The notes under the pieces are model-generated. The model searched no databases and was not told where the DNA came from. It worked only from the letters and a program-made list of their open reading frames with translations. A stretch of DNA of 64,000 nucleotides from a virus: positions 1-64,000 of the IMG/VR virus record IMGVR_UViG_3300028844_003294, one strand, 5' to 3'. The position numbers and the translations under genes were made by a program. Positions 17,357 to 49,534 of the stretch are shown here, piece after piece (positions within the stretch are counted from its first letter, which is position 1; the number at the start of each line of letters is the position of its first letter).

Positions 17357-17708
17357 CAAGTTCTAAATCTATCAACTTATGAACTTTTCTACTTTTCTTT
17401 AATTTTGAATATTCTGCATGATATTCATTAGTTGCTTCAAAGTAACGTGATAGAATTTCCTCTAAAAAATCTTCTAGATCAGTGATCTCTATAGGGTTAT
17501 TATACACGTCTAATAGTACGACACTATCTTCCTTTCTTTTGATTAGCATTTCAATGAATGTTATTAAGGAATGATCAACAATGAAACTTCCACCATTGAT
17601 ACTGTAGGTCAATAAGGTTTGAACTTTTGACTTTAAATTGTTGTGTTGTATGTTTAGAGTTTGTCTGTAATTAGCAAACTCTAATGCTTTTGTGAGTTTA
17701 GACGTCAT
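17343..17708 (-). CDS. Conserved hypothetical protein
   Basis: A 121 aa, largely helical and charged protein starting MTSKLTKALEFANYRQTLN. Similar proteins occur in T4-like cyanophages without known function. It is the first gene of the accessory block. There is no Shine-Dalgarno, and GATAAATA ends exactly 5 nt before the ATG, so its late mRNA is predicted to be leaderless. A rho-independent terminator just upstream insulates it from the fibre genes. Confidence 0.65.
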   Translation of the reverse strand: MTSKLTKALEFANYRQTLNIQHNNLKSKVQTLLTYSINGGSFIVDHSLITFIEMLIKRKEDSVVLLDVYNNPIEITDLEDFLEEILSRYFEATNEYHAEYSKLKKSRKVHKLIDLELDDNN

Positions 17709-17713
17709 ATCAA

Positions 17714-17721
17714 TATTTATC
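17714..17721 (-). promoter_or_regulatory. T4-type late promoter, 5 nt from start codon
   Basis: The minus strand reads GATAAATATTGATATG, in which the octamer is followed by 5 nt and the ATG at 17708. The same 16-mer occurs before gp25 at 43343. T4 late initiation is about 6 nt past the octamer, which places +1 on the A of the ATG. Confidence 0.75.
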
Positions 17722-17726
17722 CGGTC

Positions 17727-17756
17727 AAAAAAAAGCCAGTTACTAGAACTGGCTTT
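17727..17756 (-). terminator. Rho-independent terminator
   Basis: On the minus strand AAAGCCAGTT (17756-17747 side) pairs with AACTGGCTTT (17741-17732 side) around a 5-nt loop, and the stem runs into a tract of 8 T. It ends transcription from the fibre-like gene at 17775-18821 and is followed at once by the late promoter at 17714. Confidence 0.85.
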
Positions 17757-17774
17757 AAGATTTGTTTATTATTT

Positions 17775-18821
17775 TTATAGTTCGTTTGTTGTTGCTGTAG
17801 TTGGTGCAGATATAACAACACCGTTATTTGCACGTTTAGTTTGGATAGTACTTGATATTGTACCGTCTACACTATCAACGTATCCAACACTATCGTCACT
17901 GTTACCGTCAACCCCGTCAGGACCAAGACCATCACCTAATGCGTGGTCATCTCTCATTGTAACTGTGAAAGTTAGCACTGTTGGGTTAGTTGTGCTGTTC
18001 ACTTTCCCTTCTATTCTATAATAGTTACTTGCATACGCACCTGAACCATACTTAATATATAGTTGCTGATTACTTGTGGACAATTCATAAAAACCTTTAC
18101 CTGCACTTGTTCCTGTTGAACCTGAGCTTGTTAAGTTGTTTAAGTTAAATGTCAATGTTCCCATTGCACTTAATAGTGATGTCCAGTTTGCATTCTGGGA
18201 ACCAATTGTTCCTGCGGTACTACCTGATGTACCACCACTTCTTGCACCTGTGAATAATACTTCTCCACCTGCATTAAAGAATGCTCTACAGTGTGCTTCA
18301 CTACTGAATGTCATTGTAAATATATGATCTATTGCAGGAGTACCTGAACTACCCCAAGCACTTGTTCTTGTACTTGTATCTGCGGCATCTGTTGTTAAAC
18401 TTCCTGAAGGAACACTAAGTCTTGCATCATATACATCTTTGACATCATCCATTAAGTTACTCCAGTCAGTTGCTGTGATACTACCACCTGCAACTTCGTC
18501 TGAACTACTTGAACTATTTAATGAATGGCCTAAGAATGTCGCTAAAGCCTGTACTTCGTCCTGTAAGTTTTTGTAACCGTTATCAGTGCTACTTGCTCTT
18601 ACAAGTTCTCCTGTTGCGGCATCTAAACTACCGATTGATTGGTTGTAGCCATATATGCTACCTGCACTATATGTTCCTATTGTGTGGTCTGCTGGTGTGC
18701 CTAATTGACGATAGACATTGTTTTTCATGTTATCGTAATCTGCGTTACCTATAACATCTCCGGCAACAACCTGTGTCATTGTATATCCGCCTGTTACTGA
18801 TAATGTACTTCCGCTAGCCAT
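17775..18821 (-). CDS. Virion structural / fibre-like protein
   Basis: A 348 aa serine-, threonine- and glycine-rich protein of low charge. It contains AHCRAFFNAGGEVLFTGARS, a motif common in marine phage fibre-like structural proteins. There are no membrane segments. AGGAGA lies before the ATG, and a late promoter is 22 nt upstream, so expression should be late. It is probably a tail fibre or decoration component; the exact position in the virion is not shown by the sequence. A strong terminator follows it. Confidence 0.65.
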   Translation of the reverse strand: MASGSTLSVTGGYTMTQVVAGDVIGNADYDNMKNNVYRQLGTPADHTIGTYSAGSIYGYNQSIGSLDAATGELVRASSTDNGYKNLQDEVQALATFLGHSLNSSSSSDEVAGGSITATDWSNLMDDVKDVYDARLSVPSGSLTTDAADTSTRTSAWGSSGTPAIDHIFTMTFSSEAHCRAFFNAGGEVLFTGARSGGTSGSTAGTIGSQNANWTSLLSAMGTLTFNLNNLTSSGSTGTSAGKGFYELSTSNQQLYIKYGSGAYASNYYRIEGKVNSTTNPTVLTFTVTMRDDHALGDGLGPDGVDGNSDDSVGYVDSVDGTISSTIQTKRANNGVVISAPTTATTNEL

Positions 18822-18843
18822 ATTGTCTCCTACGTATTACTTA

Positions 18844-18851
18844 TATTTATC
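18844..18851 (-). promoter_or_regulatory. T4-type late promoter (GATAAATA)
   Basis: The minus strand reads GATAAATA, 22 nt before the ATG at 18821, with AGGAGA between them. It touches the stop of the upstream tail fibre gene. Confidence 0.75.
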
Positions 18852-21235: not shown

Positions 21236-21247
21236 TTACCATTTCCT

Positions 21248-21865
21248 CTAATTTAATTGTATCCTGACAGTATAAACAATTTCTATTTCTCTATTTTTAC
21301 TTTTTTGAACTGGGTGAAACACCACATGCGTAAGCATAATACTGTCATTTATGTCATTCGCAAAGGATAATAATCCCAATTCATCGAAAACGTACAAACC
21401 ATCGTTTGTGGTACTTGTATCAAATGCATCAGCATCACTAGGTTCGTTGTAACCTAATGTACAAGTAATCTTTAAGTCTGTGTAACTGGCACCAGGAATA
21501 ACTTCAATTTTATCTGTTTCAGTACTGTTACTAATAACTTTTTGATATGTTCTACTATATAAAGAACCACTCGATTCGTAACTTTCGCTAACTCTTGGCG
21601 ACTTGTAAATTACTTTACCTGCTGAATCAACACTAGTTGCACCATTACCAAATGCCATAAAGTGAATGTAACTATCACCTAGTTTGTCATTTAATGCTTT
21701 AGCAATAAAGTTTGCCATATTACCGTAGTGAATAGCATTCCTTTTGTTTACTAATTCTTCCCCTGATTCTTTATCACGTATTAAAATATGCCCTGATACT
21801 TTTATACCCATTTGATCATCTGCAGGTTTTTGAGTTTCTTTTTTATTTTTACTTAAATCGCTCAT
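21248..21865 (-). CDS. Virion structural protein
   Basis: A 205 aa protein with a hydrophilic N-terminus (SDLSKNKKETQKPADDQ), then IKVSGHILIRDKESGEELV and NKRNAIHYGNMANFIAKALN. Proteins with this RNAIHYGNMA segment are conserved structural proteins in T4-like marine phages, next to the baseplate genes. I start at the ATG at 21865; a GTG at 21880 also opens the frame but lies inside the promoter. The start has no Shine-Dalgarno and the octamer GATAAATA ends 5 nt upstream. The role is probably fibre or baseplate attachment, inferred from position. Confidence 0.65.
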   Translation of the reverse strand: MSDLSKNKKETQKPADDQMGIKVSGHILIRDKESGEELVNKRNAIHYGNMANFIAKALNDKLGDSYIHFMAFGNGATSVDSAGKVIYKSPRVSESYESSGSLYSRTYQKVISNSTETDKIEVIPGASYTDLKITCTLGYNEPSDADAFDTSTTNDGLYVFDELGLLSFANDINDSIMLTHVVFHPVQKSKNREIEIVYTVRIQLN

Positions 21866-21870
21866 GCTGT

Positions 21871-21878
21871 TATTTATC
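21871..21878 (-). promoter_or_regulatory. T4-type late promoter, 5 nt from start codon
   Basis: The minus strand reads GATAAATA, then ACAGC, then ATG at 21865. It is the third exact octamer with 5-nt spacing, here with a different spacer sequence, which argues that the spacing and not simple duplication is conserved. Confidence 0.75.
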
Positions 21879-21902
21879 ACTTTTTGTTAAAAATAGTTTT
21901 AA

Positions 21903-24900
21903 TTATACGTTTTGTATAAATCCTATAATTGTGTCCGTTGTTGGACTGTTTGTGGTATCCGTTATACTTACACCATCTTGCCCCAACCAGTTTGCTATTT
22001 GTGGATCACGTGCGCCTTGCAATGCAATATTTTGTGACTCTTCGCCGTTAAATATTTGTGCGCCACTTTCTATCAATGGTTGTGCTGTTGTTCCTCTTGT
22101 TCCTCTTACAACACCTAATAACTTATTATTTGCAGTATCAACACCTGTATATTCTATTCTTTCTGCACCAATCCAAATAATACCTTTATTAGACTCGTTT
22201 CCATCTGGTAGTACTGAAACATCTGCTACACTTATCTCATTTTCCCAAATGTTTACATTTGCACTAACTGTTGTAAGTCCTGTTAAAGTTTGTCTATAAA
22301 AATCTGTTTTACCAAATAAATCCATAAACATTCTATATCTTATTGATTTAGAAGTTGATACACCTGGTAAAGTTTCAATATCTGCATTTGATGTATGTAC
22401 ATTTATTACCAATGTTTCTAGTGGTTGTACTACTGCAAGTTCTTCTGGTCTATCAGGACCATGTCTTGATTTTAAGAATGTTACAGCATCAAAACCGTAT
22501 ACAGTTTCGTTATCAACTCTGTAATTTACATTACCTTGTGTTTCTTCATTTAATATTCCAATAAAGTTTTCAACGTCTACTTCTCTGTCCCAAACTTCGC
22601 TATCCCATGAATAAAAATCAAATCCTCTTGTATTTGTGTAATAAGTGGTTGGATGTGTTCCAGGAACTATATCAGTAAACACACTTGCATCTAATTGTCT
22701 ACCTTGGAAGTCACCGCCTATCTTAGTTTTTACAAGAGAGAATGTGTTATCTAAATTACCAGAATCAACCATGCTAGTAATTGTGTTTACATTTGTCATT
22801 ACAGTTGCATTTGTAAGTACACCTTCTCCAAATGTTGATTCCATATCATGTGTAAACTGTGAAATAATTTCTGGATCAAACTTAAACAGTCTATCACTTG
22901 CTGTCCAACTTAATTGTGTATTACTAATATTTGCATTGCTGTTTTGCATAATGCTTACAATATTTTTTGCAATACTGACATTTATTGTTTCTTTAGTTGG
23001 GTCAAAACCATCTATTACACTAACTTCTATAACATCACCTGCACTTACTGTTTGGAATTCTGAATTACCTGTCTTGTTTAATACTATAACATTGTTTGCA
23101 CTATCAAACGTGTAGTTAGTTGTTGAAATATTACCACCGGGTGATGTTATTATATTACCATCCGGTGCAATTCCAATACTTGAATTTAAGTTAGTTGAGA
23201 TAGTAGGAACAACTTCATCATTTCTTTTAACTACAATTCTATCTGCTTCAGAAGGTACGAAGTTAAGTGACAACGCATCAATATCTGTTGACGCCACAAA
23301 TGTTTGTGTTTGCATACCGCTTGAGTTTTCAAATAGGTCTGCTTTTACTCTATCAAATACAATCTTAGTATCTACACTTCTAATTGGTGCATTACTGCTT
23401 ACAAATCCTGCATAAGTTGAATCTGTTGCTAAAATATTTGCATCAGCACTTACACTATCATCAAGTACTCGAACATCTATTGTTTCGCTATCAAAATAAG
23501 GAGGTCTATCAAAGTCTGTGCTTGTTCCACTTACTATTTCTGTTGCAGGTTTTTTAATATCACTGTAGTTTTGTATCTTACTGCTGTACGGTTTTACTTC
23601 GTTAAAGTAATCAATTGCTTTATCAAAGTTATCAACTTTAAATCCTTTTAGTGGAACTAGGTCTGTTTCTTCTTTAACAATATTTAGATAAGTTGTTTTG
23701 AATGCCCAGTTTAATTCTGTTTGTTCTGAATATGCATACTTGACCATATCAAAAAAGAATCTATTCCAATATACTCTACTACTACCAACAAACACGTTGT
23801 TATATAATGCTAATAGTACGCTTCTAATTTCTTCTGCAATAGGATTAGACTGTTGCTCTTTGTAAACTTTTTCGTTCCATTCAACTGTCTCATCTTCTAT
23901 AGCGATCAACTTAAATGTATCTGTTGACTTACTGTATTCGTAAAGTGAATACTTGCTGTTTGAGTTACTTTGTACTTGTATAACTGATCTATCTAGAACA
24001 TTTTTTAATAATTCTAGTTGTTTTGTAGTGGCTACTTTTCTTAAAGGTTTGTAATCACTATTATAATAAATTTTAGAGTTAGTAACTTTGTCTGTTCTTA
24101 GTTCTTCAAACCAGTTTACTGTGTCTAAATAATTTAATGTTGTAGGTAAACTATTTCTCCAGTCATCAAAAGTTGAATCCATTTTTAATTCTTTAAATAT
24201 AGAATTCAAAGAATTAAACATTTGCTTTCTTGCTTCTTTGATATATTTAAACATGGTTTGTCTAGGTCTATAAGATGAACCATAACGTTCGGCTTCACTT
24301 AAACCTTTAGCCGGAACATCTTCGCCCAACCCATTTATACCTGCTAAACTATCAATAAGTTTTACACTTAATTCACTAGGTATGCTACTGTTCTTATCAC
24401 CTTCACTTGCTAATTGCCATGAAGTATGTTGTTGTGAATGCTTTTCAGGGCGTCTAGTATAATTTAAACTCAAAATACTATTTTCAGTTTTAATTAAATC
24501 GCCTAGCATGTTTATACCCATTGCTTCTGGAGATACCATAGCAAAGTATGGTAATCGTTGTCCTTCAGGATTACTTAATAGGTTTACAAGTTCAACTGTG
24601 CTTCTTTCTCTACCATAATGTGCAAATGCCTTAGCATCAACCGTGGTCTTACCTTCAACCCAGAAGTAATAGTAGTCTGTTAGTTTACCTTTATCATTTG
24701 CTCTAGTTTCTAATATAAAGTTAGGTGCTGAACCATCACTGGGTGTAAGTGCTTGAACACCATTACTGATGTTTTGTAAATTAAATTCTTCTGGTGTTAG
24801 TAAACTTTCTATCCATTCAACAATCTCAATCTTACTATTGGGGAACATGCTACCCCAATTTCTTATTCTTTCTTCGTTATTATATCCGTATATATCATAT

Positions 24901-27900
24901 GTACCAGCACCTTGCTCGTACCATTCGTATTTAACTTTGCTGGTATTCCACCATGTGGCACCAACTTGTTCTTTACCAAATTTGGTATATGCAGGATTAT
25001 ATACCACAGGGTCGTTTTCAGACTTGAATATTATTTCTTTATCAATAAACCCAGGTATAATTCCTTTAAATGGATCATATAAATTTAACTCAAATTCTTT
25101 TTGTGCGGTATCTTCGTCATATGTGAATACATCTTTAACAAATTTAATATCTGCTAATTTTTCCTGTTGTCTAATAACTGTATTGCTTTCCAAGTATGCC
25201 CAGCCACCTGTTGTTCCGTAACTGTCAATCCATGCATTACTAATATTTGCTAAATCTAATCCTGACTCAGTATCATGTCTCATGCTTTCTAATACTAATG
25301 GTTTAACATATTGTCTATCAACATCATCACGTGTAAATTGTATAGCATCGCCAGTGATTGTAGTAATATCGTATTTAAACATATCTTGAGACTGTGTTAT
25401 GTTACCCAAGTTCATATTAAAGTTCCAACCATTTTGCCATGGTTTGTTTCTTACGCCTCTTCCGGCTGCTCCATTAAATGGAAAACCATCAGCCATTTGT
25501 TGTACTGAAATTGCTGGGTTTACACCGGAACCATCGTTGTTTGTAACTTCAATTCCTGGTCCACAATAATATGTTCCTGGTAAAACACCTAGGATGTCTA
25601 GCAAACCTGGATTTAAATTATCATCAATTTCGATGCCCATTAGTGTTGGAGAACTTAATACTAACTCACCAATCATTGCACCATTAGGTACACCACCTCT
25701 ACCTAAACCACTATTACCGAGACCATCATCACCTAAGTTAGCATCACTTGGAATAATATTACCATCAGCATCTCTGTATACAACATCAGCCGCAAATAGA
25801 GGATTACCATTCTCATCTAATTCAGAGAATAAAGAAATATCATCTGCTAATTGTTGTTCAGGAGTTGTTGCATAAATTACTCCATTTGGTAAACCTAAGT
25901 CTGTTAAAGCATTACCTTTCTCTGAGCAACTTGGAATTTCTCTTGCTGTTAAGAATATTCTAGCACCAAATCCTGCGCCTTTGTTAGCGGCGTCTCCGTA
26001 TGCATTATCTATATGACCACTGCTACCAAGTATCTCACTATCTGGAGTTCCTGATTGTGGTCGTTTAATATCATACTCTAATGGTACACCACTATCCAAA
26101 TCACTTGGGAATATTTTATATATACCTCTAGTGATAATTTGTATATCTGTAATTTCACCATCTGGCCCAACGCCGTTTACAACAAATCTTGCAGGTTTTT
26201 CTACTGCTGGGTGTTCTACTTTAGTTTTTGCTGATACACTTGCATTTCTACCGGTACCAATTATTGTAATTGTTGGAGGATTATCCATGCTATAACCATC
26301 TCCTCCGGAGGCCAATGGAATTTTTGTAATTGCACCAGAACCATCAACTTCGATGCCACTATAATCAACTAGTGCGCCTGTTCCAGGTTCACCGGTTTGT
26401 CCAATTACAACTCGTATGCTGTCTTTAACATACCCAAATCCGCCATTGTTTACTGTTATTGATTGTAATTCACTAGACGGTAATCCAACTACAGGTGTAC
26501 CGCCCATAACTCTCAGTACATCACCTACAGCATATCCACTGCCTTTAGTTAAGCAAATACTTTGCTTATCATTGTTAGCCAATCTTTCTTCTGGTGTAAT
26601 TGTGTCAGTAGTAAATGATGCCACACTAGTACCAACAATAGTAGCATTGCCACTACCACTTGCTGTATTTGTAAGTGTTGTTGGTCCTTGCACAACTTCT
26701 TTGTTGAAACACATTTGTTGATCTTTTTGTAATGTGTAATCTAATACTTCTTTGTACACACCACCAGCACAACCATTTCTAACTACCATTGGGTCTGCGG
26801 TTTTGTTTCTAATGGTCAAACATTTATCGCCTAATCCATCTGGTGTTACATGTACTGTTACTGATGTTACTTGACTTCTAATTTCGTTTGCTATTGCATC
26901 TATACTGGTAGCACCGCTTAGTGTTACTGATGTGCCATTTATATAAAATGTATCACCTTGCCCTACTGATTTAGTTTGTCCACAAACTTTAATTCTAGGT
27001 TTAGGTGTACAAACCGGTATCTGACTTGTATTTGTAGTACCACCTGTAGGAGTATGTCCTGTTAGTCCAATATGATTTGTATTACCTTGTCCTTGGTTTC
27101 CTGGGTTGGTATTAGTAAGTTGTGCTTGTGGACCACTAATCAGTGTACCACTCCAAGCATTACCATTTATATCTACCCAACCCAATGTTGGGCTCCATCC
27201 AGCCGTGTTTGCATTATATGAAGGATAACCATTAGTTAGTCCTGCTTGATACTGAGTATTATAACTGAAAGTACCGGCACCTATACCTGCGATGTTTACG
27301 CCACTAAAGTTAAAGGTAGTGTTGACTCCGTTAAAACCTGAACCATAACCACCACCAATTTGTAAACCACCTGGTGGGATAAAGCCATTGCCCCAAGGAC
27401 CGGCTCCGTTTGCTATTACACCTGGATTTGCATTGTTACTAGGATTACCTACACTAGCCACACTACCTTGTAAAGGTACCCCATCGTCTGATGGATATTC
27501 TATTGCAAAATTGTATGCAGTACTTGTACTGCCATCTTTTTCTAATTTGATTGTTATGTATTGTCCGTTAGCAGGATAATATGTAAAACTTAACTTACCA
27601 TTTTCTTTCACAAAGCCGTTGCCGTGTGTGGTATAATCTTGTATACCACCACTAAATTGAGTGTTATTTGAACCAGTTCGTATTCTATTATACTCTGTTT
27701 TATCTGTATCAGTTAGTTGGCTTAATGTACCTGCTACACCTGTGCCTGCAAGAGTTCTACCTGTACTACCTGCTGTTGTGCCTTGATAAACAGTCATTTT
27801 GTCTTTAGCACTATACATGTCGAATAATATTTTAATAGGCCATCCTGCACCGTTGTTATCATCAGTAGCAAATTTAAATCTAGTTGTCTCTGTTACACCC

Positions 27901-30900: not shown

Positions 30901-33900
30901 GTATCCTCAAAATCTAGAGTACCATACTCGACAACTTCAATTACTGAATTCTCATTTAATTCACCACCTGGTAATTTTGACACATCATAGAATGTAATAA
31001 TATTATTACTACCTGACTCGCTTACAATATAACCTGCAACACTACTAGTTTCTAGTGCATCGTCTAATTTCTGTCCGTCAATGAAAACATCTAAATGCGG
31101 ATATATTCCGTTTATAACTGTTCTGTTATCAATATCAATTAAATTAGTATTTGATACTCCGTCACTGACTGATGTTGGTACAAAATTAAATGATATATTA
31201 CCTCCTGTTGTTCTACTGGTAGGTCTTATAGTTGTTCTACTACCTTCATCGAACACCCAATCATTGCCTGCTGAAGTTATGTTGCCGTCAACTGTTGCTA
31301 TAATATCACTTTGTGCAGTACTGTTAGCAGTTTCAAAACTATATCGTTGCCTTGGTTGATATCTTCTTTCTTCTAATAAGAACTTGTTTGTGATATCATC
31401 AACAATAGCACTATTGCCCTGTCCAGAAAGTTGAAAATCATTACCTTGTATTTCTAGCAAATAATTGGTTGATGTAGATGTTGTAATTTCAACTGCTCTT
31501 GCTACAATATTAGCATTAGTGTTTGCAGTACTGTTGATTGCATTTGCAACACCAGTAAGTGTTGTAACACCCGATAAATCAATAAATGTATTTGCATTAC
31601 CGCTAGGTGCAAAATGGTCTGTGATATGGATACCTGTTAAGGCATTTGCAAATGTACCTGAACCAGATACATAATCACTTGATATTGCATAAGGCTTACT
31701 AAAATATGTTGTAAGGTTTGCTGTAAGCAACTGTGCCGCAACTACTGTTACAGATGGGTTTATAGTATAGCCATAACCTTTTTCTGTAACTGTGACGTTG
31801 CTAATTGTTCCATCAGTGGATAAATTCACTATGGCTTCAGCAGTAGTACCTCCACCGTATGAGAAACTTCCTGGAATCTCTGCAGGTGGTGGTTCTATTT
31901 CAAGTATTGGTTTTGTATAGAATTTTGTATTTCTACTTAATACTTCTACATCATCAACAATACTAACTATATTTTCTGGGTATACAATTTGTACTAATGT
32001 TTTTTCACTTTTAATCTCGTCTTCATCAATTTTAACATCCAGTCTCTGTTTATTACCAGTGTCACCAAAATCACCAATTTTTAATGCCCATTGATCAAAT
32101 ATACTTACGTTACCAGGAATAAACACTTTGTCACTGTTTAACAAGATTTCTAAACTGTCTTTTGTACCTTTGTTTCTGATCATACCTTGATAGAAATCAA
32201 ACTGGTTATCATCTACTAATTCAAATTCTCTAAGATATTTTCTTTCTTGATAACCATATTGTCTTCTACTTGCATCATAAACTTGTTTTTCTACTGGCAT
32301 ATAACCTATTTCGTTATATCTGCCAATGTCACTTGCAAGTGTATCAAAGTTTGGTTTTAATCCATTGTCAGTGATTATGAAACCTTCACTTGATAATGTT
32401 CCGTTCCAATTAGCAGTTCTCTTGCCTTTAATTTTTAAACGTTTTTGTCTTTGATTAAATACTGGATCATAAATTGTATCGCCAAATTGCGATTTGTTGT
32501 TTACAAGCATACTATGTTCTAATTCATTAGTATGTAATGTAATACCATAAATTTGTACTTCTCTATCAATTGTTGCGATCGTAATAGAATTACTTTCTCT
32601 AACAATTTCACAATCCCGAGGAGAAACCATTTTTCCTTCTTGATCTAATATACTAAATTGTCCTTTATAAGATTCTTGAATTCGATTTATTCTACCTGTA
32701 GTAGTAGCAAACGATACTTTGTTTGCCATAGGACTAAGATTTAATGTATTACCTGTTGACCATTTACCAATGCTCCAGAATAAGAACTGCTTACCTGAAT
32801 ATAACCAATCGTTTATATCATTTATTTCTGTGCTAAATTCACCAAAATCAAATCCTATTGATTTTTGATATCTGCCTAAACTGGTTAAGAAATCAAATAA
32901 GTCATTTACATTATAATAAACAGTACCGTATTCTACTCTTTCAACATTACCAGTTCCATCTAGATAAAATGTTGCTTCTGCTCCGCCTACGTTTGGCAAT
33001 GCACTCATTCTTTGCCATACTGTTGTATCGGTCACTGCCGTACCTGCAGAAGCAAATGCTACTGCTCGATAATAATTGTAACCTGATTTAACTATGTTAC
33101 CTTCGTTGTATTGTTTAGTTGTATCGTAATTACTAAAGTTTGCAGGTTCGCCGCCTACTGATACTTCTGTTTTTCTGCCTTGTTTATCACTAGGAATAAT
33201 ATCAAAGTATCTTTTTAAACTGCTGTATCCAGAAACTTTATATCCATTATTTGAAACTTTTTCTATAAGCACACCTGTATAATTGTTTGTTGTTGATACA
33301 GGACCTTCATGGATATCAATTTGTAAATCTTCTTGAGGTAATATTAAACTTGAACTATTACCTGTTGTACTATATGTATCACTGAATACAGTCATTGTAT
33401 CTTTATCAATAAATCCAGCAAACTTATGTCCTAGTTTACCGTTGACAGATCTAAATGGTTTTGCAAATATAGATGTATTATTAAGGCCCTGGAATCTCAA
33501 ATAAGAGTCTATGAATTGTGTATAACCAGTGTTAGTACATAATGTTTTACCGTCTGCCTTTATGTCGCCGTGTACAATAGCATTTTTGACTTTATATCTT
33601 TTGTTTGTATTTTTATCAACTAATTGGTTGGTGTTTGCAGAAACTCGAATAAGTTTTTCCGGTTCTGCAAACACACTGGCAAACTTACCTGGCTTGGTAA
33701 GAAATAGTGATTCTATAATTGCAAATGGATAATATTCAGAAATTTTCCATGCATTCTCTACTGGAGCACCGTCACTAAATTTCCAATTGCTACTTGCTAA
33801 TGTTGAGTTAGCACTATATACTGTTGACTCTGAGTTGTCTAACGAATATGATAGGGTACCGTTTGTATTTAGAGTTTGTGTACCAATTAAATTGTTTGCT

Positions 33901-36900
33901 AAGTCTGGTGTATCTATAAACTTGCCACCAACTGTATAAGGATATGCTGGTTTGCTGTTTGCATCTATTGTTGCAACATAATAGTATGTTCCTGCAGGAT
34001 ATTCTGGTGTAACACCAAAACGTCCATTAAACTGATCAAGATCACCACTGCCTGGGTTATACGCATAATCTTCAATAAATTCACCTGTTGGTAAACCTGT
34101 TGCACCACTGGCTATATCAGATCTTACATCACTTCTTAGTTCGTAACTGCTTTCTATTCTTTTAATAGCACTACTGGCATTTGCACCATCAGTGTAGCCG
34201 TATGGACCATAAATTGGTAATCCGTCAAATGCCCATCCAACAATTGGTGAATGACTGTCAGTTGCCCAACTAGTCAATCCAACTGTTTGAGGACTAGGTT
34301 GTACATATCCGTAAATATTATTACTGTCTGGTGAACCACCAGCAGTATCTCTGTCAACATCATTTCTAAACATTGCATTGTAGTGCCAGTTACTACTATC
34401 TTCAAAGATAATACCTGTATTACTGTTTGTAATCATTGCACCGTTTACTGCTATACCTATTGCAGTATTGCTTGTTGATGTTGCATTTGCATAATCATTA
34501 TAATATGCTAAATTTCCTGTTGCTATACCTGTAGCAAATTGGAAACTGTAATTGAATTCTGAGTCTACAATTTCATTTGTATTATTTGTAGACGGGAATG
34601 TTCCAGTGTCGTGTCCTGGAATATTATTTGTTGTAACATTTATAAATGTGTTACCTGAATTATTGTATTCACTTATTGATAAACCGTCAGTAGCAATAAA
34701 TGTATTTGCATTTGCACTAGGTGTTCCTGTAACACTCTGTGACCAAGAAATACTTTTTGTTGTTGATGTAGTACTAATAATATTAGCAGGTGGTATTAGG
34801 TTGCCTTGTGCATCTACAGGTATTTCATATTTTAATCCAATTCTTCTAAAAGGATTTTTTCTAGTTTTATATCTATCATTTTCAATATTGGCTCTAGTGC
34901 CTTGTCTAATAATACCTTCCTCTAAATCTTTCCATAAGTCAGTGTTAGTTGAACCATAGTCTGTACCATACTGTTCTTCCCACCATGTTGGTTTTTTAGT
35001 GAAGCCTAGCATTTCCCATGGGTGTGTATGAGGTTTTTCTGTATCGTAACAACTTTCAAAAATACCTCTCCAATAAGCAGGTTTTACAGTATTGCTATTG
35101 TAATTCCATGTCCAAAAATCATCTTCTTTATAATATTCATTTGTAACAAAGTCTACTTCGTTTCTTGTAACAAATTTATTAAAACTTTCTCTTAAAATAT
35201 TATAAAAGTCGTTTCTTGAAAATCCTGTTGTTCTGAATCTACCTGGTCTAATGTCAAATACATTTAAGTCAGGATGTGATTCCTTATCTTTATAAACTTG
35301 TAATATTGTATTGTAAACTCTTCTTTCAAACTCTAATAATATTTCATCTTCTTTGTCGTTTACTGCTACATGCTTACTACCATCATGTCCAAGTACTACA
35401 TTTATTGGCTCATTGAAAGTAGTATCCTTAAATATTTCTGGTTTTGTTACAGGATACAGACCCATTGCACTTGGTGTGGGCGGACATTGAGCACTTTCTC
35501 TGTTTGTATTAAAGAATCTTGCTTTTATTGTACTACCTAACGATAAAGTATAATTATCAGTAAATGTTAAAGTAACAATGCTGTTATCACTGTTTATGCT
35601 ATAGTCAGTATCAATCAAAAGCATTTGATCTTTACCTTCGCTATCTGTTTCGTAAATGTAAACTACATTTTCTACTTTAGTCAAATCGCTATATCTAGAT
35701 AAGGCATATTCTTTTTGATTTACGTTATTGATTACAATAGTTTCTTCGTCGTATCTATCACCAATTGCTAACATGTAACTATAGTCAAATACTAGTTTGC
35801 CTGGATTGTATGCTATAACATTTTGTATTACAAGTTCTAATATATCGCTGTTTGTTAAACCAATTATATCGTTGCCATCAATGTAACGTTTAATCTCTTT
35901 TCTTAATCTGTTTTTATACTTAATATACTCTTCTGCATTATATCTTATTGCATCGATAATATTAAAGTTATCATTGCTAACTAGGAAAGCCGCAGTTTGC
36001 AAGTCATCGTCTGACTGTACAATTTTGTCTGCATATTTTATTTCTTTTGTTAGATTACTAAAGTTATTACTTCCAAGAGGCTCACCTTCAATGTGCTCTT
36101 GGTTGTTTATTAAATTTTTAAAATGTTCGATGTATTGTGGTTCACTGATTTCAGATATATCTACTTTATCAGTGTTCGAATCCCAACTTAGAGGTATTTC
36201 ATATCTACCAGTTCTGTTTTCACCTAATATATGCCCAGTACTTGTTTTTGTTTTAATATCAATTACATCATTTAATTTTAACTCAAAACTTGCAAACTGA
36301 ATAGCAGTCAATACACTATTATATGTGAACGCCTTAGTACGTTTACCATTGATATAAACTCTTATGTCATTGCTATCTGTGGGTGTTGCTGATATATTAT
36401 AAATTACAGTTTTTGCATCTACAAGATCTTGAGATATTTGATATCTATCTTCGACTACTTGTTCGAAAGGAGTGTTTTGTCCTCTCCACATAGTTCTATA
36501 TTCTATGTTACCGTTGCTTAATCTTTGCTTGTAATACAAGTATCCATTTATGTAAGAGTTTGTTGTGCCACCAAAGGGCACATAACTAATTACGTCAGAA
36601 CTTAAATTGTTGTTAAAAACAATTTCGCTGAAGTTATTAAAGTTTTTATACTCTAGAGGAAATCCTAAAACACTATCATTCTGTGTATTTGACGTTGCAT
36701 CTTTATAAGAAAATAATTTTGTTCCTTTAAAAGATGATTTTGGGTATACCAAATCATCATCGACAATATTTCTATTACCGTCATATGCTTTAAACAATAT
36801 AGGACTGTTTACCCTAGTTTTCTTTTGACCTAATATCCATTTTTTTCCATTCCAAAAATATTCTGTACCTTGATTTTGAGAACCAAACAGAATAGAAATA

Positions 36901-38537
36901 CTATTACCAACTTCAGGAACAAACGGTATAAAATTACTATCGCCGTCTACTGCACCTACAGGGTTATTGTCTGCTGGTTTTCTTTTAAGTATAACTCTAT
37001 CACCAAATGTAATGCTTTGCTGATCTGTAAGTGTTACATTTGCACTAGTTGTAATTATTTTAGAGCTAGTATCAATATCTTCAACTTGCACAGTAGTACT
37101 AATGCCATTGCCTGTAATAGTTGAATATAGATAAATGTCTGATATGTCGTCAACAATAAAGGTTGAACTATTTGATACACCACCTACAACTGTTTTAGTT
37201 GTTGATGCTTTTACAACATAAACATATTTTGCATTATCTTCTGTATCATCTGGTATTAAAACTAAATTTTCTTCTTTGATGCCCTGACTGTCAATTGGTG
37301 CTGATATTGGCCGGCCTTCTATTTCAGCCTTAGTATAACCTGCGGCAGATAAATCAGCATTAAAGTTTAGACCTAGATTACCAAAATTGTATACTTCTAT
37401 ATCTCTATCAAATTCTAAAATAGGTCTTTTTGCTCTGAATTCTTTACCTGGTAATTCAGAGCCCGAATCTATGAAATTGTTTTTATGATGCCAAAAGTTT
37501 ATTCTACTCCAAATATTTTTATCTTGTGCACCACGTTGCATAAGAATGTAATCTGGTGTTTCCTGAGTGTTACCACCATCCCATGGTTCATTGTCGAATC
37601 CATATAATCCATCGTTTATATAAACCAAGAAGCCGTCTGCTTCTGAAACGTAGCCTTCCCAAAAAGGATTACCGTTTAAGTCTATATCTTGTAATGAATT
37701 GACTTGTACTGTGGACTGCTCACCTTCTGCATCAAAGTAGTAATATAAACCTGTACTAGTATCAAGATAACCATGTGTTGTAATAATACTTTCTGATACT
37801 GCACCTTGAGGTATGTCGGTTAAAATTAAGTTAGATTCACCTGTTATTATTTCTTGATCCCATGGAGAAAAAGAAGGAGTTGAAAAACTTGCTGAAAAAT
37901 TTTGTTCCTTATTATGTAAAATAATACTGTCGCCAACACCTTCAACAATGTATCTATCGTCTTTGTATGTTTGAGGAATCACATAGTCACCTGCAAATTC
38001 CACCACTGCACCATTTTTAAATGTATAACCTGATGGATCAGTAAATGTTTTTTTACCAATAATATCTTTTAAAATGTTTATAGGTTGACTTGCTGTACCA
38101 CTAACTACTATTGCTTGTGGTCCTTCTGGACTCCAAAAATATTCTTGGAAATTTACAAATTTATCTTCATCAATGGGAGGTAACAAACTGTAAAAGTTTG
38201 AACTGAATAAATTGTTTTGGTTTTGTGTATCGACACCATAACTTTTTAAAACATTTAAAAAGTCATCGTAGAACATTAAATTAGTACTTAATCCTGTTAG
38301 TTGATCTACACTATTGACTACTGGTTCTAAACTATATTTTTCTCTGTTAGGTGTGCTCTGAGGAACATATACATCTGTATCTGGGTTATAGTCGTCGAAC
38401 TCTTTTCTTCCAATATATGCAGACAAGTTTTCAACATTTGCTTTGCTGAATAACTGTTCTACTGTACTTTCGAAAAAGTTTTTAACAGTAGTTGTCTGAA
38501 TATTCGTTGGTAAGTCTTTATACTTTTTATCAGCCAT
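21903..38537 (-). CDS. Giant 5,544 aa baseplate/tail structural protein
   Basis: This single uninterrupted frame takes up a quarter of the window. It follows gp25 and gp6, the place of gp7/gp8 in T4, so a baseplate wedge or peripheral role is inferred. Visible parts, in order: an N-terminal module with FQEYFWSPEGPQ; a YHYH-type domain around residues 1300-1540 (HSPIVGWAFDGLPIYGPYGY); copies of a valine-rich repeat ending S-x-x-S-I-T-F (near residues 500, 2960, 3115, 3265); a glycine/proline-rich linker near 3350-3850 including a run of prolines; and a C-terminal part with ERIEYTGVDTANNKLLGVVR. No transmembrane or protease motif is evident. It is several times longer than T4 gp7 (about 1,030 aa). 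Confidence 0.75.
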   Translation of the reverse strand: MADKKYKDLPTNIQTTTVKNFFESTVEQLFSKANVENLSAYIGRKEFDDYNPDTDVYVPQSTPNREKYSLEPVVNSVDQLTGLSTNLMFYDDFLNVLKSYGVDTQNQNNLFSSNFYSLLPPIDEDKFVNFQEYFWSPEGPQAIVVSGTASQPINILKDIIGKKTFTDPSGYTFKNGAVVEFAGDYVIPQTYKDDRYIVEGVGDSIILHNKEQNFSASFSTPSFSPWDQEIITGESNLILTDIPQGAVSESIITTHGYLDTSTGLYYYFDAEGEQSTVQVNSLQDIDLNGNPFWEGYVSEADGFLVYINDGLYGFDNEPWDGGNTQETPDYILMQRGAQDKNIWSRINFWHHKNNFIDSGSELPGKEFRAKRPILEFDRDIEVYNFGNLGLNFNADLSAAGYTKAEIEGRPISAPIDSQGIKEENLVLIPDDTEDNAKYVYVVKASTTKTVVGGVSNSSTFIVDDISDIYLYSTITGNGISTTVQVEDIDTSSKIITTSANVTLTDQQSITFGDRVILKRKPADNNPVGAVDGDSNFIPFVPEVGNSISILFGSQNQGTEYFWNGKKWILGQKKTRVNSPILFKAYDGNRNIVDDDLVYPKSSFKGTKLFSYKDATSNTQNDSVLGFPLEYKNFNNFSEIVFNNNLSSDVISYVPFGGTTNSYINGYLYYKQRLSNGNIEYRTMWRGQNTPFEQVVEDRYQISQDLVDAKTVIYNISATPTDSNDIRVYINGKRTKAFTYNSVLTAIQFASFELKLNDVIDIKTKTSTGHILGENRTGRYEIPLSWDSNTDKVDISEISEPQYIEHFKNLINNQEHIEGEPLGSNNFSNLTKEIKYADKIVQSDDDLQTAAFLVSNDNFNIIDAIRYNAEEYIKYKNRLRKEIKRYIDGNDIIGLTNSDILELVIQNVIAYNPGKLVFDYSYMLAIGDRYDEETIVINNVNQKEYALSRYSDLTKVENVVYIYETDSEGKDQMLLIDTDYSINSDNSIVTLTFTDNYTLSLGSTIKARFFNTNRESAQCPPTPSAMGLYPVTKPEIFKDTTFNEPINVVLGHDGSKHVAVNDKEDEILLEFERRVYNTILQVYKDKESHPDLNVFDIRPGRFRTTGFSRNDFYNILRESFNKFVTRNEVDFVTNEYYKEDDFWTWNYNSNTVKPAYWRGIFESCYDTEKPHTHPWEMLGFTKKPTWWEEQYGTDYGSTNTDLWKDLEEGIIRQGTRANIENDRYKTRKNPFRRIGLKYEIPVDAQGNLIPPANIISTTSTTKSISWSQSVTGTPSANANTFIATDGLSISEYNNSGNTFINVTTNNIPGHDTGTFPSTNNTNEIVDSEFNYSFQFATGIATGNLAYYNDYANATSTSNTAIGIAVNGAMITNSNTGIIFEDSSNWHYNAMFRNDVDRDTAGGSPDSNNIYGYVQPSPQTVGLTSWATDSHSPIVGWAFDGLPIYGPYGYTDGANASSAIKRIESSYELRSDVRSDIASGATGLPTGEFIEDYAYNPGSGDLDQFNGRFGVTPEYPAGTYYYVATIDANSKPAYPYTVGGKFIDTPDLANNLIGTQTLNTNGTLSYSLDNSESTVYSANSTLASSNWKFSDGAPVENAWKISEYYPFAIIESLFLTKPGKFASVFAEPEKLIRVSANTNQLVDKNTNKRYKVKNAIVHGDIKADGKTLCTNTGYTQFIDSYLRFQGLNNTSIFAKPFRSVNGKLGHKFAGFIDKDTMTVFSDTYSTTGNSSSLILPQEDLQIDIHEGPVSTTNNYTGVLIEKVSNNGYKVSGYSSLKRYFDIIPSDKQGRKTEVSVGGEPANFSNYDTTKQYNEGNIVKSGYNYYRAVAFASAGTAVTDTTVWQRMSALPNVGGAEATFYLDGTGNVERVEYGTVYYNVNDLFDFLTSLGRYQKSIGFDFGEFSTEINDINDWLYSGKQFLFWSIGKWSTGNTLNLSPMANKVSFATTTGRINRIQESYKGQFSILDQEGKMVSPRDCEIVRESNSITIATIDREVQIYGITLHTNELEHSMLVNNKSQFGDTIYDPVFNQRQKRLKIKGKRTANWNGTLSSEGFIITDNGLKPNFDTLASDIGRYNEIGYMPVEKQVYDASRRQYGYQERKYLREFELVDDNQFDFYQGMIRNKGTKDSLEILLNSDKVFIPGNVSIFDQWALKIGDFGDTGNKQRLDVKIDEDEIKSEKTLVQIVYPENIVSIVDDVEVLSRNTKFYTKPILEIEPPPAEIPGSFSYGGGTTAEAIVNLSTDGTISNVTVTEKGYGYTINPSVTVVAAQLLTANLTTYFSKPYAISSDYVSGSGTFANALTGIHITDHFAPSGNANTFIDLSGVTTLTGVANAINSTANTNANIVARAVEITTSTSTNYLLEIQGNDFQLSGQGNSAIVDDITNKFLLEERRYQPRQRYSFETANSTAQSDIIATVDGNITSAGNDWVFDEGSRTTIRPTSRTTGGNISFNFVPTSVSDGVSNTNLIDIDNRTVINGIYPHLDVFIDGQKLDDALETSSVAGYIVSESGSNNIITFYDVSKLPGGELNENSVIEVVEYGTLDFEDTYQGDLPGSVLNIKVTANDALAAKLKQIRTFEITPDVKTDSTILIDVDDGTRMIHRPTDMATNDLWPTTSSVSHLGIVDSKYTPLPNAGYISKYNVNYQAMDLQNFEQLFDRATRKASKIPQANDLIHFAIDEHSDFNAYQLVDTNCNVAYVEGDLNSQSISLFTNKSLMQFTDGNRENTANNINKYYDNVVAFKRDKNIYNAYYDKMSYADGEKIFDDTIMDLTTPVGLFFNEEQVVKNSFDVTDITYTRPMVLGIEKIEPNVSGNVLNIQPHALFNEGIVANANIVGNNIVEISIVTTQETVDGTVSFSNQFSGLTNGSYVNFVDTSGGNLNGNNYEISNLNVTAFTTNGTQSSTANTSVPVISEVSGTVTNSKTVTLLEANTDIRNGMSVLGTGVENNTKVNQISGTTITLSQNANISSGANITFVSQSVIYTTTESSTTTFTIEDATVSSNVSTANLTIGKTDGLIVTTDFDTTTLTRGDDVKIQNAGLFEGVHRIKDITVNGVANTISIPGDYVAPLSITSTFTGVDTANIQLATANSSITDGMLVTGGNVAANCKVLYIDAGGNIILSSNADSSANSSITFTEDRFGNATLVDNYVTVTFTEDHDLTIDSAGQDTILEHVVNIGYAEPGYYNWAWRAKGVPTANTLLVQGYGYDHPVPVTYTTTFTGTGNSIVIASENDFVQKFVSVSGGDVASGTKVVSVDGTTVILDGNADSSANNSITFSANAVSEKQYLEYGNSAQLTVGNPEGNAYLSSTHKGKIFINGMPVATAFPMYSSQQYVDDINYQLQIKQGAVAFCGSIQISIPFITPALKAAARAAALNAANRTGLQNFAGLGQVPAGTINPKLQGKQHTLRNSYNYAGLAQRVLNGGQHSFVDPNPGNSGNVTTSGPSAPVPVPLSGGGLTFGGGSSTPPTQSPTYNPPPPPTTVVNTIQAPGSSGNYASAGTNGTSFADFSPIIDITQNDTPCPPPPPVPPTPPVPPVKMVTQFISNTKGRGVTETTRFKFATDDNNGAGWPIKILFDMYSAKDKMTVYQGTTAGSTGRTLAGTGVAGTLSQLTDTDKTEYNRIRTGSNNTQFSGGIQDYTTHGNGFVKENGKLSFTYYPANGQYITIKLEKDGSTSTAYNFAIEYPSDDGVPLQGSVASVGNPSNNANPGVIANGAGPWGNGFIPPGGLQIGGGYGSGFNGVNTTFNFSGVNIAGIGAGTFSYNTQYQAGLTNGYPSYNANTAGWSPTLGWVDINGNAWSGTLISGPQAQLTNTNPGNQGQGNTNHIGLTGHTPTGGTTNTSQIPVCTPKPRIKVCGQTKSVGQGDTFYINGTSVTLSGATSIDAIANEIRSQVTSVTVHVTPDGLGDKCLTIRNKTADPMVVRNGCAGGVYKEVLDYTLQKDQQMCFNKEVVQGPTTLTNTASGSGNATIVGTSVASFTTDTITPEERLANNDKQSICLTKGSGYAVGDVLRVMGGTPVVGLPSSELQSITVNNGGFGYVKDSIRVVIGQTGEPGTGALVDYSGIEVDGSGAITKIPLASGGDGYSMDNPPTITIIGTGRNASVSAKTKVEHPAVEKPARFVVNGVGPDGEITDIQIITRGIYKIFPSDLDSGVPLEYDIKRPQSGTPDSEILGSSGHIDNAYGDAANKGAGFGARIFLTAREIPSCSEKGNALTDLGLPNGVIYATTPEQQLADDISLFSELDENGNPLFAADVVYRDADGNIIPSDANLGDDGLGNSGLGRGGVPNGAMIGELVLSSPTLMGIEIDDNLNPGLLDILGVLPGTYYCGPGIEVTNNDGSGVNPAISVQQMADGFPFNGAAGRGVRNKPWQNGWNFNMNLGNITQSQDMFKYDITTITGDAIQFTRDDVDRQYVKPLVLESMRHDTESGLDLANISNAWIDSYGTTGGWAYLESNTVIRQQEKLADIKFVKDVFTYDEDTAQKEFELNLYDPFKGIIPGFIDKEIIFKSENDPVVYNPAYTKFGKEQVGATWWNTSKVKYEWYEQGAGTYDIYGYNNEERIRNWGSMFPNSKIEIVEWIESLLTPEEFNLQNISNGVQALTPSDGSAPNFILETRANDKGKLTDYYYFWVEGKTTVDAKAFAHYGRERSTVELVNLLSNPEGQRLPYFAMVSPEAMGINMLGDLIKTENSILSLNYTRRPEKHSQQHTSWQLASEGDKNSSIPSELSVKLIDSLAGINGLGEDVPAKGLSEAERYGSSYRPRQTMFKYIKEARKQMFNSLNSIFKELKMDSTFDDWRNSLPTTLNYLDTVNWFEELRTDKVTNSKIYYNSDYKPLRKVATTKQLELLKNVLDRSVIQVQSNSNSKYSLYEYSKSTDTFKLIAIEDETVEWNEKVYKEQQSNPIAEEIRSVLLALYNNVFVGSSRVYWNRFFFDMVKYAYSEQTELNWAFKTTYLNIVKEETDLVPLKGFKVDNFDKAIDYFNEVKPYSSKIQNYSDIKKPATEIVSGTSTDFDRPPYFDSETIDVRVLDDSVSADANILATDSTYAGFVSSNAPIRSVDTKIVFDRVKADLFENSSGMQTQTFVASTDIDALSLNFVPSEADRIVVKRNDEVVPTISTNLNSSIGIAPDGNIITSPGGNISTTNYTFDSANNVIVLNKTGNSEFQTVSAGDVIEVSVIDGFDPTKETINVSIAKNIVSIMQNSNANISNTQLSWTASDRLFKFDPEIISQFTHDMESTFGEGVLTNATVMTNVNTITSMVDSGNLDNTFSLVKTKIGGDFQGRQLDASVFTDIVPGTHPTTYYTNTRGFDFYSWDSEVWDREVDVENFIGILNEETQGNVNYRVDNETVYGFDAVTFLKSRHGPDRPEELAVVQPLETLVINVHTSNADIETLPGVSTSKSIRYRMFMDLFGKTDFYRQTLTGLTTVSANVNIWENEISVADVSVLPDGNESNKGIIWIGAERIEYTGVDTANNKLLGVVRGTRGTTAQPLIESGAQIFNGEESQNIALQGARDPQIANWLGQDGVSITDTTNSPTTDTIIGFIQNV

Positions 38538-38542
38538 TTATT

Positions 38543-41500: not shown

Positions 41501-42970
41501 TTTCTCTGAATACAATGCACCATCTTCTGCGATCGAAGTTGTAGTTTGAAAGGTGCTTGTTGGATCTGTGATATCAATATATCTACTATGTCCAGCATGT
41601 GTTTTATTTGTTACTTTAAGTTTTGAAATATTAGTACTCTTTGCTAAAGGGAGTACTTGGTAATCTTGGGCACTTATCATTCTATCTTGTGAGTAGTATG
41701 ATTGTGGTGCTCTTTCTTTAATACCTGCTATAGTTTCTGCAGGCAAACTGTTGTTTACAGCATTTTCTAATCTTGTTGTAATTGTAAGTTCGTAGTTTTT
41801 ACCATCACCATTTACATAAGGTATAGATGTTGTTACAACACCAAAGTCATCTGGCTGTACACTAAATCTTTCGTTATCACTTGTTCTGTAATACACTCTA
41901 TAGTTTCCAACAGGAACATTAGCAAAGTTGCCATCTGCAAATTGCATGTTGATACCACCGGTTCCTAAGTTTTGTACAGCATAAAGTAATGGTGTTTGTT
42001 TTGCCTTCACATTGTACATTAGTGTTTGTCCAATTGTGTTAGGCACTTTTTCCCATTTTGCTAATACACTTCTATCTGAATCTATTTGTTGCAAGTAAAC
42101 ATCAGTTTCGTTGATGTTGTCAACGCCAATTGTTTGTTGTCTATTTTCTACTGGTTGTGCAAAATTAAATTCTTGGTTTGCTAATGTTCCTTGTTTGAAC
42201 ATCATAAAGAAACCAGTATTGTTACTGGATAATCCTAATCCATCGTTTCTGTGTACTATAGAAAAATCGTTTTTTGGGTCTGGGTGCTTTTCATAAAAGA
42301 ACCCTGCATCATCAAAATCTACGTTTACAAAGTCAAATGCTCTACTAACACCGTTTATGTCTCTTTTAAAGTTAAAAGTCAAAGGAGCATTTGTAGGAGT
42401 TTTTACATCGTACTTGTCGGTAGCAATGCCTCCAACTGTGCCTGATTTAACAGGCTTACTAAATCTATTCACGTTACCGAACGCACTATTTAATATAGTA
42501 ATAAATTGTTCATAACTGTCTGGGTTGTTTGCATCATCCCAACTTACTGTTCTATTGTTAAGAGGTGTACTAGAACTATCTGTTAGAGGTTCTGATGTTG
42601 CGACACTTACAATTTTTGCTAATCCACTAGCCGCAATGTTTCTTTTAGGATTATATCCTAACTGTCTTGCAAGTTTAAATACTGAATCTCGTCTTTCTGC
42701 TGTTTCTAAAAAGTTCTCTCTAGTATTGACATCCATTCTAAATGCAATACTTTGAGCAAGGTATGCCAGCAATTCTATAATTGCTATGAATTCTGAACTT
42801 TCTATGTAGTCGTTAAAGTTTTCAGGAAAATTAGTTTTGATGTATTCGACCATTGCTGTACGAATAGTATCAAAGTCATATGCTTGAAAGTCTACCTGAC
42901 TGTATGCTTGGTAGGCTACTTCCCAGTCTTCAGCCGCGAATAGATTATTTTGTCTGCTGTTTATTGCCAT
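38543..42970 (-). CDS. 6: Baseplate wedge protein gp6, enlarged
   Basis: A 1,475 aa protein. The N-terminal region (DFQAYDFDTIRTAMVEYIKT, ESSEFIAIIELLAYLAQSIA, RMDVNTRENFLETAERRDSV) is the signature of T4-like gp6, the wedge subunit that forms the inner baseplate ring. T4 gp6 is about 660 aa, so roughly 800 residues are extra. The C-terminus has NGYYPLYATKEAADFAGDGT, HTHEFFGKVFYMPNG and MHYHGTYV, a module found in other marine phage structural proteins. The ATG at 42970 follows the gp25 stop by one base; a TTG at 42997 inside gp25 is rejected as the start. Confidence 0.85.
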   Translation of the reverse strand: MAINSRQNNLFAAEDWEVAYQAYSQVDFQAYDFDTIRTAMVEYIKTNFPENFNDYIESSEFIAIIELLAYLAQSIAFRMDVNTRENFLETAERRDSVFKLARQLGYNPKRNIAASGLAKIVSVATSEPLTDSSSTPLNNRTVSWDDANNPDSYEQFITILNSAFGNVNRFSKPVKSGTVGGIATDKYDVKTPTNAPLTFNFKRDINGVSRAFDFVNVDFDDAGFFYEKHPDPKNDFSIVHRNDGLGLSSNNTGFFMMFKQGTLANQEFNFAQPVENRQQTIGVDNINETDVYLQQIDSDRSVLAKWEKVPNTIGQTLMYNVKAKQTPLLYAVQNLGTGGINMQFADGNFANVPVGNYRVYYRTSDNERFSVQPDDFGVVTTSIPYVNGDGKNYELTITTRLENAVNNSLPAETIAGIKERAPQSYYSQDRMISAQDYQVLPLAKSTNISKLKVTNKTHAGHSRYIDITDPTSTFQTTTSIAEDGALYSEKSNSSDYFNFDNVNTPLDFVNTKIPTILKNQKLNDFIYSDFRDSFLNTASYKDTFNLELFNIAWNTLPKKDTGSKGFLTETYTTNNAIDLNTANNLFKIIQAGSVMKFYDPANVGDYKWAKIVSITNNAIRTASGTNVDGPITLDREIPNGWKSDQIITVLRKTLFALEKTELQTALASKRTFGLRFDPADNRYYIIENNNLSDQVEFNIANAGDETGGQADASWILKFTYVPIDSTAYRYNIEIRGTQFIFESLEEVRFYNVNTNRIQDSATGLALYDTVELTTLNVRPSFSEVFEWRDTNDNNIGDKWYLVSTGDTFDNIPLISRNIEYSDLEISITSNFGLWKEGSASSGEFVDEITLQLGTSPNTTDDANVVVVKNSGLIDSLPIVNVAFTNATFGVNILDNNGNIAYSYNKEGTSFNNNRTLGPGAAGDGFGLYLLDSNVTTQSGNLQIRLDERQHYGVDSTARQNRSDTIEVRYVTDTTRLENPIIYSAIGNFTYPDGFTDPKKVKVTPTNTEGGDAPNNPIQFADFVGRDDIVLFEEYEEFDGYSYTRPVKAGILDLRKESGVNFSSDYSRIAGNSIGDAENNTGTVHSTNDYDYYLVKSKSVIEGSGNPNTSFDNTIGKLHNKKVYAKADGKVYQMSKSSTNLQRVSHYESSSHFAKKGRSFTQNTNAKRQQPVVFKWTHIADNSVRIDPSISNIHEMFILTTTYYNKMQSYLNVPGTDYPTPPTPSELETEFMHLNDLKSASDQLVFRSGKFKLLFGDDAEPELQARFKVVRLPGTSLSDNEIRTQVIAAVNRYFNIENWDFGDTFYFTELSSYIHQQVGNAIGSIVIVPKTASGVFGDLFQVKSDADELFISTANILDIDVVDKLTQSNIRPDKSSTGLLTTYDGATSQVGPYAINGYYPLYATKEAADFAGDGTSHTHEFFGKVFYMPNGIMHYHGTYVLDQSVATNATGNTITLNNTLSTNSADNTGGSSGNGY

Positions 42971-42971
42971 C

Positions 42972-43343
42972 TTAAGTCTCTGTATTATTTCTTGCAAAAT
43001 CTAAATATAATACCTCTTCGTTAAGGAAAGGTAATATTTTAAGATTCACTACAATTTTAACAGTATGATCAAGTGCTTCAGTGAATATGTCCTGTAGTTC
43101 TACTCTAGGATCTTTCAATACTACTCTACGAACCTCATCTTCTACTTCCTGGATAAGGAACTTGTCCAGTGGGTTCATAAGTATGTCTTCAATTCTAGTG
43201 CCAAAGGAAGGTCTCATTACTCTCTCGCCTTTTTTAGCCTTGAGTTCATTGAGTAAGTCAGTTTTAATTAGTTCGCCATCCGTTAGTGTATACGGGGGTC
43301 TAATTCTTTCTTGCGTACTAAAGCCTCGATATATGTTTGCCAT
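42972..43343 (-). CDS. 25: Baseplate wedge protein gp25
   Basis: A 123 aa gp25-like protein, a wedge component that nucleates sheath assembly. It contains YRGFSTQERIRPPYTLTD, the MRPSFGTRIEDILMNPLD core and KDPRVELQDI, matching the family's conserved order; T4 gp25 has 132 residues. It lies directly ahead of gp6, the usual arrangement. I start at the ATG at 43343: a TTG at 43358 would place the start inside the late promoter. There is no Shine-Dalgarno and the octamer lies exactly 5 nt upstream. Confidence 0.9.
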   Translation of the reverse strand: MANIYRGFSTQERIRPPYTLTDGELIKTDLLNELKAKKGERVMRPSFGTRIEDILMNPLDKFLIQEVEDEVRRVVLKDPRVELQDIFTEALDHTVKIVVNLKILPFLNEEVLYLDFARNNTET

Positions 43344-43348
43344 ATCAA

Positions 43349-43356
43349 TATTTATC
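43349..43356 (-). promoter_or_regulatory. T4-type late promoter, 5 nt from start codon
   Basis: The minus strand reads GATAAATATTGATATG before gp25, identical over 16 nt to the element before the gene at 17708. It should drive gp25, gp6 and perhaps the giant gene. Confidence 0.8.
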
Positions 43357-43397
43357 AAGAACCTTTAAAACATGTTTTAAATCAACCAAAAAAACGG

Positions 43398-49524: not shown

Positions 49525-49532
49525 TATTTATC
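49525..49532 (-). promoter_or_regulatory. T4-type late promoter (minus arm of divergent pair)
   Basis: The minus strand reads GATAAATA, 16 nt before the ATG at 49508. It is separated by only 2 nt from an identical octamer on the plus strand at 49535. Confidence 0.8.
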
Positions 49533-49534
49533 AC

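Follow-up and report, generated by a model that had tools for sequence, protein, structure and literature searches.

A late promoter placed on the start codon: predicted leaderless late genes in uncultured T4-like phages

We found that, in a group of uncultured T4-like phages, a late promoter octamer stands exactly 5 nt before the ATG of many late genes, and we consider it likely (probability roughly 0.86) that a gp55-type sigma factor drives the transcription of these genes into leaderless late mRNAs, which would make up a large class; no RNA 5' ends have been mapped. The layout is far more widespread than the three genes in which it was first noticed, is kept across distant relatives of the record and is absent from T4. 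Many of the late genes of these uncultured and apparently widespread phages, a large share of the total, carry promoter and start codon as a single unit of 16 bases.

According to the mechanism that we propose, a gp55-type late sigma would direct RNA polymerase to NATAAATA in a clade of T4-like phages, the large members of which are jumbo-sized, and transcription would begin at a pyrimidine|A initiator located 6 nt downstream of the octamer. The start codon of a large subset of late units would be placed on this initiator, such that the mRNA would begin with 5'-AUG and be leaderless. Translation would then follow the leaderless route, in which the ribosome, probably 70S, binds the 5'-terminal AUG without a Shine-Dalgarno sequence. 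The remaining late genes of the same genomes would use the same promoter with a gap of 14-45 nt carrying a Shine-Dalgarno sequence. The dependence on gp55 and the mode of translation are inferred.

Octamer, 5 nt and ATG in the record

The window, that is, the whole 64,000-nt stretch analysed from the 72,152-base IMG/VR record IMGVR_UViG_3300028844_003294, was observed to contain three GATAAATA-N5-ATG sites, all on the minus strand (17706-17721, 21863-21878 and 43341-43356), as compared with an expected count of 0.08; three or more sites occurred in 0/100 dinucleotide shuffles. This confirmed the sequence-only reading, which had reported the octamer, 5 nt and ATG without a Shine-Dalgarno sequence at genes 17708, 21865 and 43343 (gp25). 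A 16-mer said to be common to two of the sites was indeed found exactly twice in the record (GATAAATATTGATATG, at 17706-17721 and 43341-43356), and the SDR gene at 7833 had the predicted layout with a degenerate octamer, AGTAAATA-N5-ATG. The start codon is AUG at all four genes, and a Shine-Dalgarno sequence between octamer and ATG was present in none of them (0/4). Other late genes of the record had leaders of 16-41 nt, as had been stated; the Shine-Dalgarno sequences attributed to them were present in four of five and missing from one. Two minus-strand octamers of leadered late genes serve for comparison, at 12563-12570 (23-nt gap with AAGGA) and 49525-49532 (16-nt gap with AGGAG).

Gene 17708 (17343-17708, minus strand) encodes a 121-aa late product of unknown function with 265 viral relatives and is predicted to be leaderless. 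Its octamer GATAAATA (17714-17721, minus strand), the spacing of which is conserved in the close clade, is followed by the 5-nt spacer TTGAT and the ATG (17706-17713, minus strand). The transcription start at the A of this ATG (17708) is inferred from the spacing, the pyrimidine at -1 and the initiator position of leadered promoters. In 51 rows of relatives, the 5-nt layout was present in 26, with a Shine-Dalgarno sequence in 0/26, and a Shine-Dalgarno sequence was found in 20 of the other 25; the latter were counted as leadered and include L071 and L073, with a gap of 6 nt, which are probably near-leaderless. Distant relatives had the octamer about 25-30 nt upstream together with AGGAG. The two layouts were clustered on the tree (4 changes vs 17 with shuffled labels), and an outlying clade of 16 rows was leadered throughout. 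Directly upstream of the promoter lies an intrinsic-terminator-like hairpin, GCCAGTT...AACTGGC with a T tract (17732-17756, minus strand), which is kept in most of the 5-nt relatives.

Gene 21865 (21248-21865, minus strand; 205 aa, PHROG 11259), also predicted to be leaderless, has homologs annotated as structural in some jumbo phages. Its octamer GATAAATA (21871-21878, minus strand) showed the 5-nt spacing in 24/24 relatives. A minus-strand open reading frame of 5,544 codons lies directly upstream of this gene (window 21903-38537).

The gp25-like baseplate wedge gene (42972-43343, minus strand; 123 aa) is predicted to be leaderless, and its octamer GATAAATA (43349-43356, minus strand) occupies positions -13 to -6 relative to the A of the ATG. 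In 37/37 loci the octamer was combined with the 5-nt spacing, and a Shine-Dalgarno sequence was absent. Across the 10 distinct upstream haplotypes of these loci, the T residues at -4 and -1 were invariant, as was the octamer in its place at -13 to -6; the flanks varied, and the spacing was invariant down to 41% amino acid identity. The nearest upstream gene of gp25 is divergent, and translational coupling is therefore unavailable to it. For the SDR-like (FabG-like) gene (7237-7833, minus strand), likewise predicted to be leaderless, the degenerate octamer lies at 7839-7846 (minus strand), and TAAATA-N5-ATG was kept in 7/7 sequences. This gene belongs to a late-strand cluster (window 2970-11383) with several radical SAM-like proteins; Sinorhizobium phage Phosso has a similar radical SAM gene run after the same structural gene.

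Spacing, Shine-Dalgarno loss and start point in related genomes

A peak at 5 nt in related genomes, coupled to the loss of Shine-Dalgarno sequences, had been put forward as a check of the initial reading, and we found both. In the 250-kb genome G002, NATAAATA was located at exactly 5 nt in 26 genes, with none at 4 nt and none at 6 nt (binomial p about 1e-27). The 340-kb genome G001 had 16 genes at 5 nt and 7 at 6 nt (p about 1e-13), and permuted control motifs of the same composition gave only 0-1 genes in the scan of these two genomes. The recognisable late promoters of G002 comprise 26 at 5 nt vs 39 leadered, such that about 40% are fused to start codons. The more distant G003 (the L132 record) had 12 genes at 5 nt and a second cluster of 8 genes at 8 nt; the 8-nt gaps would give 3-nt leaders. 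PA5oct had 2 genes at 5 nt. The same scan found no late octamer nearer than 12 nt to a start codon in T4, and in Escherichia phage 121Q there were 0 genes at 5 nt and one at 6 nt, which excludes the layout as a general property of T4-like phages. No cultured phage with a 5-nt peak was found in the collections searched. Genes were called by a simple method in these scans, which were restricted to ATG starts.

In 23 further records, ATAAATA-N5-ATG gave 53 matches vs 4 for the reversed control, as compared with 9 vs 3 at N4 and 11 vs 2 at N6, and, as read by eye, 52 of the 53 N5 matches had a pyrimidine before the ATG. Since most of these records were retrieved by way of gene 17708, several of them contribute one site that is not independent; several records are also closely related to one another. 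A chance origin of the 5-nt spacing was excluded by the shuffles, permuted motifs, reversed patterns and neighbouring spacings; the spacing is not chance because orthologs conserve it and relatives show a genome-wide peak.

The 5-nt genes include those for the terminase large subunit, a head-tail adaptor, a virion structural protein and gp25, as well as a weak tape-measure match, a radical SAM protein, a thioredoxin-domain protein and many genes of unknown function. Among ortholog pairs of G001 and G002, 8 were leaderless in both genomes by their layout and 5 were leaderless in one and Shine-Dalgarno-leadered in the other. The leaderless state is thus often kept and can switch between orthologs.

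For the analysis of translation signals, we pooled 45 genes at 5 nt, namely 3 in the record, 26 in G002 and 16 in G001. A Shine-Dalgarno sequence was found in 2/45 of these as compared with 70/82 leadered late genes (Fisher p 2e-20). Both exceptions are an AGGA joined directly to the octamer and lie ahead of the predicted start, and 0/45 carried a Shine-Dalgarno sequence inside the predicted transcript. One might suppose that the ATG is not the true start and that a downstream start with its own Shine-Dalgarno sequence is used. We regard this reading, which has no specific evidence in its favour, as highly improbable, since such a sequence plus a start within 120 nt was no commoner in the 5-nt genes (4/45) than in the leadered ones (8/82). 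Moreover, M1 of the gene 17708 product was invariant (alignment A1), and the alignment of PA5oct gp25 begins at residue 1, in agreement with the annotated start.

The base before the ATG was C or T in 45/45 of the 5-nt genes vs 36/70 of the leadered ones (p 7e-10). Leadered promoters were observed to have a matching initiator: in 40/70 a pyrimidine-A step spans positions 5|6 counted from the octamer, as compared with 10/70 and 14/70 at the adjacent offsets. These two observations point independently to the A of the ATG as the transcription start. The T4 late octamer is located at -13 to -6 from the transcription start (PMC1524935), and together with the 5|6 peak this makes the A of the ATG the predicted +1, which supports the start point assigned by the sequence-only reading; the actual 5' end is inferred. 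A second, weaker pyrimidine-A excess was found in the leadered promoters at 7|8 (28/70), suggesting that start choice may be looser; a start at position 8 would cut into the ATG. A close variant that overlaps the leaderless reading is that transcripts start near rather than on the ATG, with leaders of 1-3 nt or heterogeneous ends. The 7 genes of G001 at 6 nt and the 8 genes of G003 at 8 nt, which would give such leaders, are in its favour; against it are the pyrimidine at -1 throughout the 45 genes and a peak that falls precisely on 5 nt in both the window and G002, and we consider it unlikely.

A/U-rich leaders can help initiation without a Shine-Dalgarno sequence, and TAAATA-N5-ATG might accordingly be read as a translation-initiation signal, an A/U-rich ribosome-binding element, and not as a promoter acting at its start point. 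We find scarcely any room for this. The octamer also stands 14-45 nt upstream of Shine-Dalgarno-bearing genes of these genomes, it agrees with the late promoter of T4, and the genome encodes a gp55-type sigma; in addition, leadered promoters have their initiator equally far from the octamer.

The gene preceding a 5-nt gene is in most cases on the same strand, and sometimes only 1-12 nt away, as would suit translation from a longer readthrough RNA by coupling with the upstream gene, the octamer being a weak or secondary promoter. However, the upstream gene was divergent in 11/45, including gp25 in all three genomes, and the terminator-like hairpin lies just upstream of gene 17708. Nor would coupling predict the exact 5-nt spacing or the pyrimidine at -1. 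Readthrough with coupling cannot explain gp25 and is unlikely for gene 17708; it may add to the expression of close-packed genes, and as a general account it appears quite improbable.

Taken together, we prefer the hypothesis that late transcripts of the 5-nt genes begin at the AUG. With about 40% of the G002 late promoters fused to start codons, a further, tentative and rather doubtful idea is that of a dedicated leaderless late programme, in which the phage may shift the late ribosome pool to leaderless initiation and so favour translation of these genes late in infection. The genes listed here provide a sequence-based set of predicted leaderless late genes, and their leadered orthologs are natural controls for why leaderless translation is kept or lost. 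Gene callers that rely on Shine-Dalgarno sequences may misplace the starts of 5-nt genes.

Phage group, late sigma gene and an upstream palindrome

Among the products encoded by the record are T4-like baseplate proteins and nuclease subunits resembling gp46/gp47. At the protein level, the closest named phages are the jumbo phages PA5oct, RaK2-like, 121Q, Phosso and Atu_ph07, and the IMG/VR relatives of the record include the contigs of 250 and 340 kb. We describe the group as uncultured, T4-like and mostly very large; a marine origin is inferred from the kind of sample sets and the relatives. The sole match from a scan of genome contigs was a 40% relative carried by a Gammaproteobacteria MAG contig; this copy has a Shine-Dalgarno leader, and the host therefore remains unknown. 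A link of the 5-nt layout to a phage bS21 was considered and was not supported: G001, G003, PA5oct and Phosso encode one, and G002, which has the strongest peak, is without.

The gp55-type late sigma factor gene was identified at 49624-50490 (plus strand; PHROG 12791, E 3e-96). Two GATAAATA octamers stand back to back at 49525-49542, between a minus-strand structural gene and this plus-strand gene, and the late sigma itself may therefore be expressed from a late promoter.

Some late octamers are also preceded by a palindrome, TTAAAACNNGTTTTAA. Allowing up to 2 mismatches and a distance of no more than 15 nt to the octamer, we counted 4 copies in the record, 8 in G002 and 5 in G001, as compared with expected counts of 0.08-0.18 (0.08 in the record). 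The palindrome was never found at this position in T4, 121Q or PA5oct. The window copies lie 4-8 nt upstream of late octamers, at 21887-21902, 43365-43380, 49541-49556 and 59087-59102; the first two, TTAAAACTATTTTTAA and TTAAAACATGTTTTAA (both minus strand), are each 8 nt upstream of the octamers of gene 21865 and gp25, respectively. The pattern was derived from these two, which are thus not independent, and two G002 sites were counted once per strand; the remaining copies still exceed expectation. The palindrome centres near -30, where the T4 late promoter has no element. It precedes both leaderless and leadered genes and is therefore a feature separate from the leaderless layout; it is a possible regulator site, with no function shown.

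Comparison with known systems

In the open-access literature (subscription papers were not covered) we came across no description of T4-like phages with leaderless late genes, and our literature search found no leaderless starts in phiKZ papers. Leaderless transcripts are known for lambda cI and for the middle and late genes of Thermus phage YS40. The initial reading viewed leaderless phage late mRNAs as unusual; leaderless mRNAs in general are not without precedent among phages. Those of lambda cI and YS40 start at AUG, as predicted here, but are not known to arise from gp55-type late transcription. Phage transcripts have been said in passing to be often leaderless (PMC5312081). In Deinococcus-Thermus, many genes have leaderless mRNA because a -10 element lies only a few bp before the ORF; in D. 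radiodurans the share is about one third (PMC12340547). That system involves the host's principal sigma and host genes, whereas a phage late sigma and phage genes are involved here.

T4 late promoters (gp55/gp33/gp45) share with those described here the octamer NATAAATA, the predicted start 6 nt downstream and a gp55-type sigma gene. The T4-type octamer TATAAATA at -13 to -6 has its counterpart in GATAAATA, the position of which relative to the A of the ATG coincides exactly with these coordinates in gp25; the start is inferred, and the first base is G instead of T. T4 gene 25 has a split Shine-Dalgarno site (PMC3014915). In contrast to T4, which has no late octamer within 11 nt of a start codon, the phages described here fuse the promoter to the start codon, and they carry a palindrome near -30 at a subset of their late promoters.
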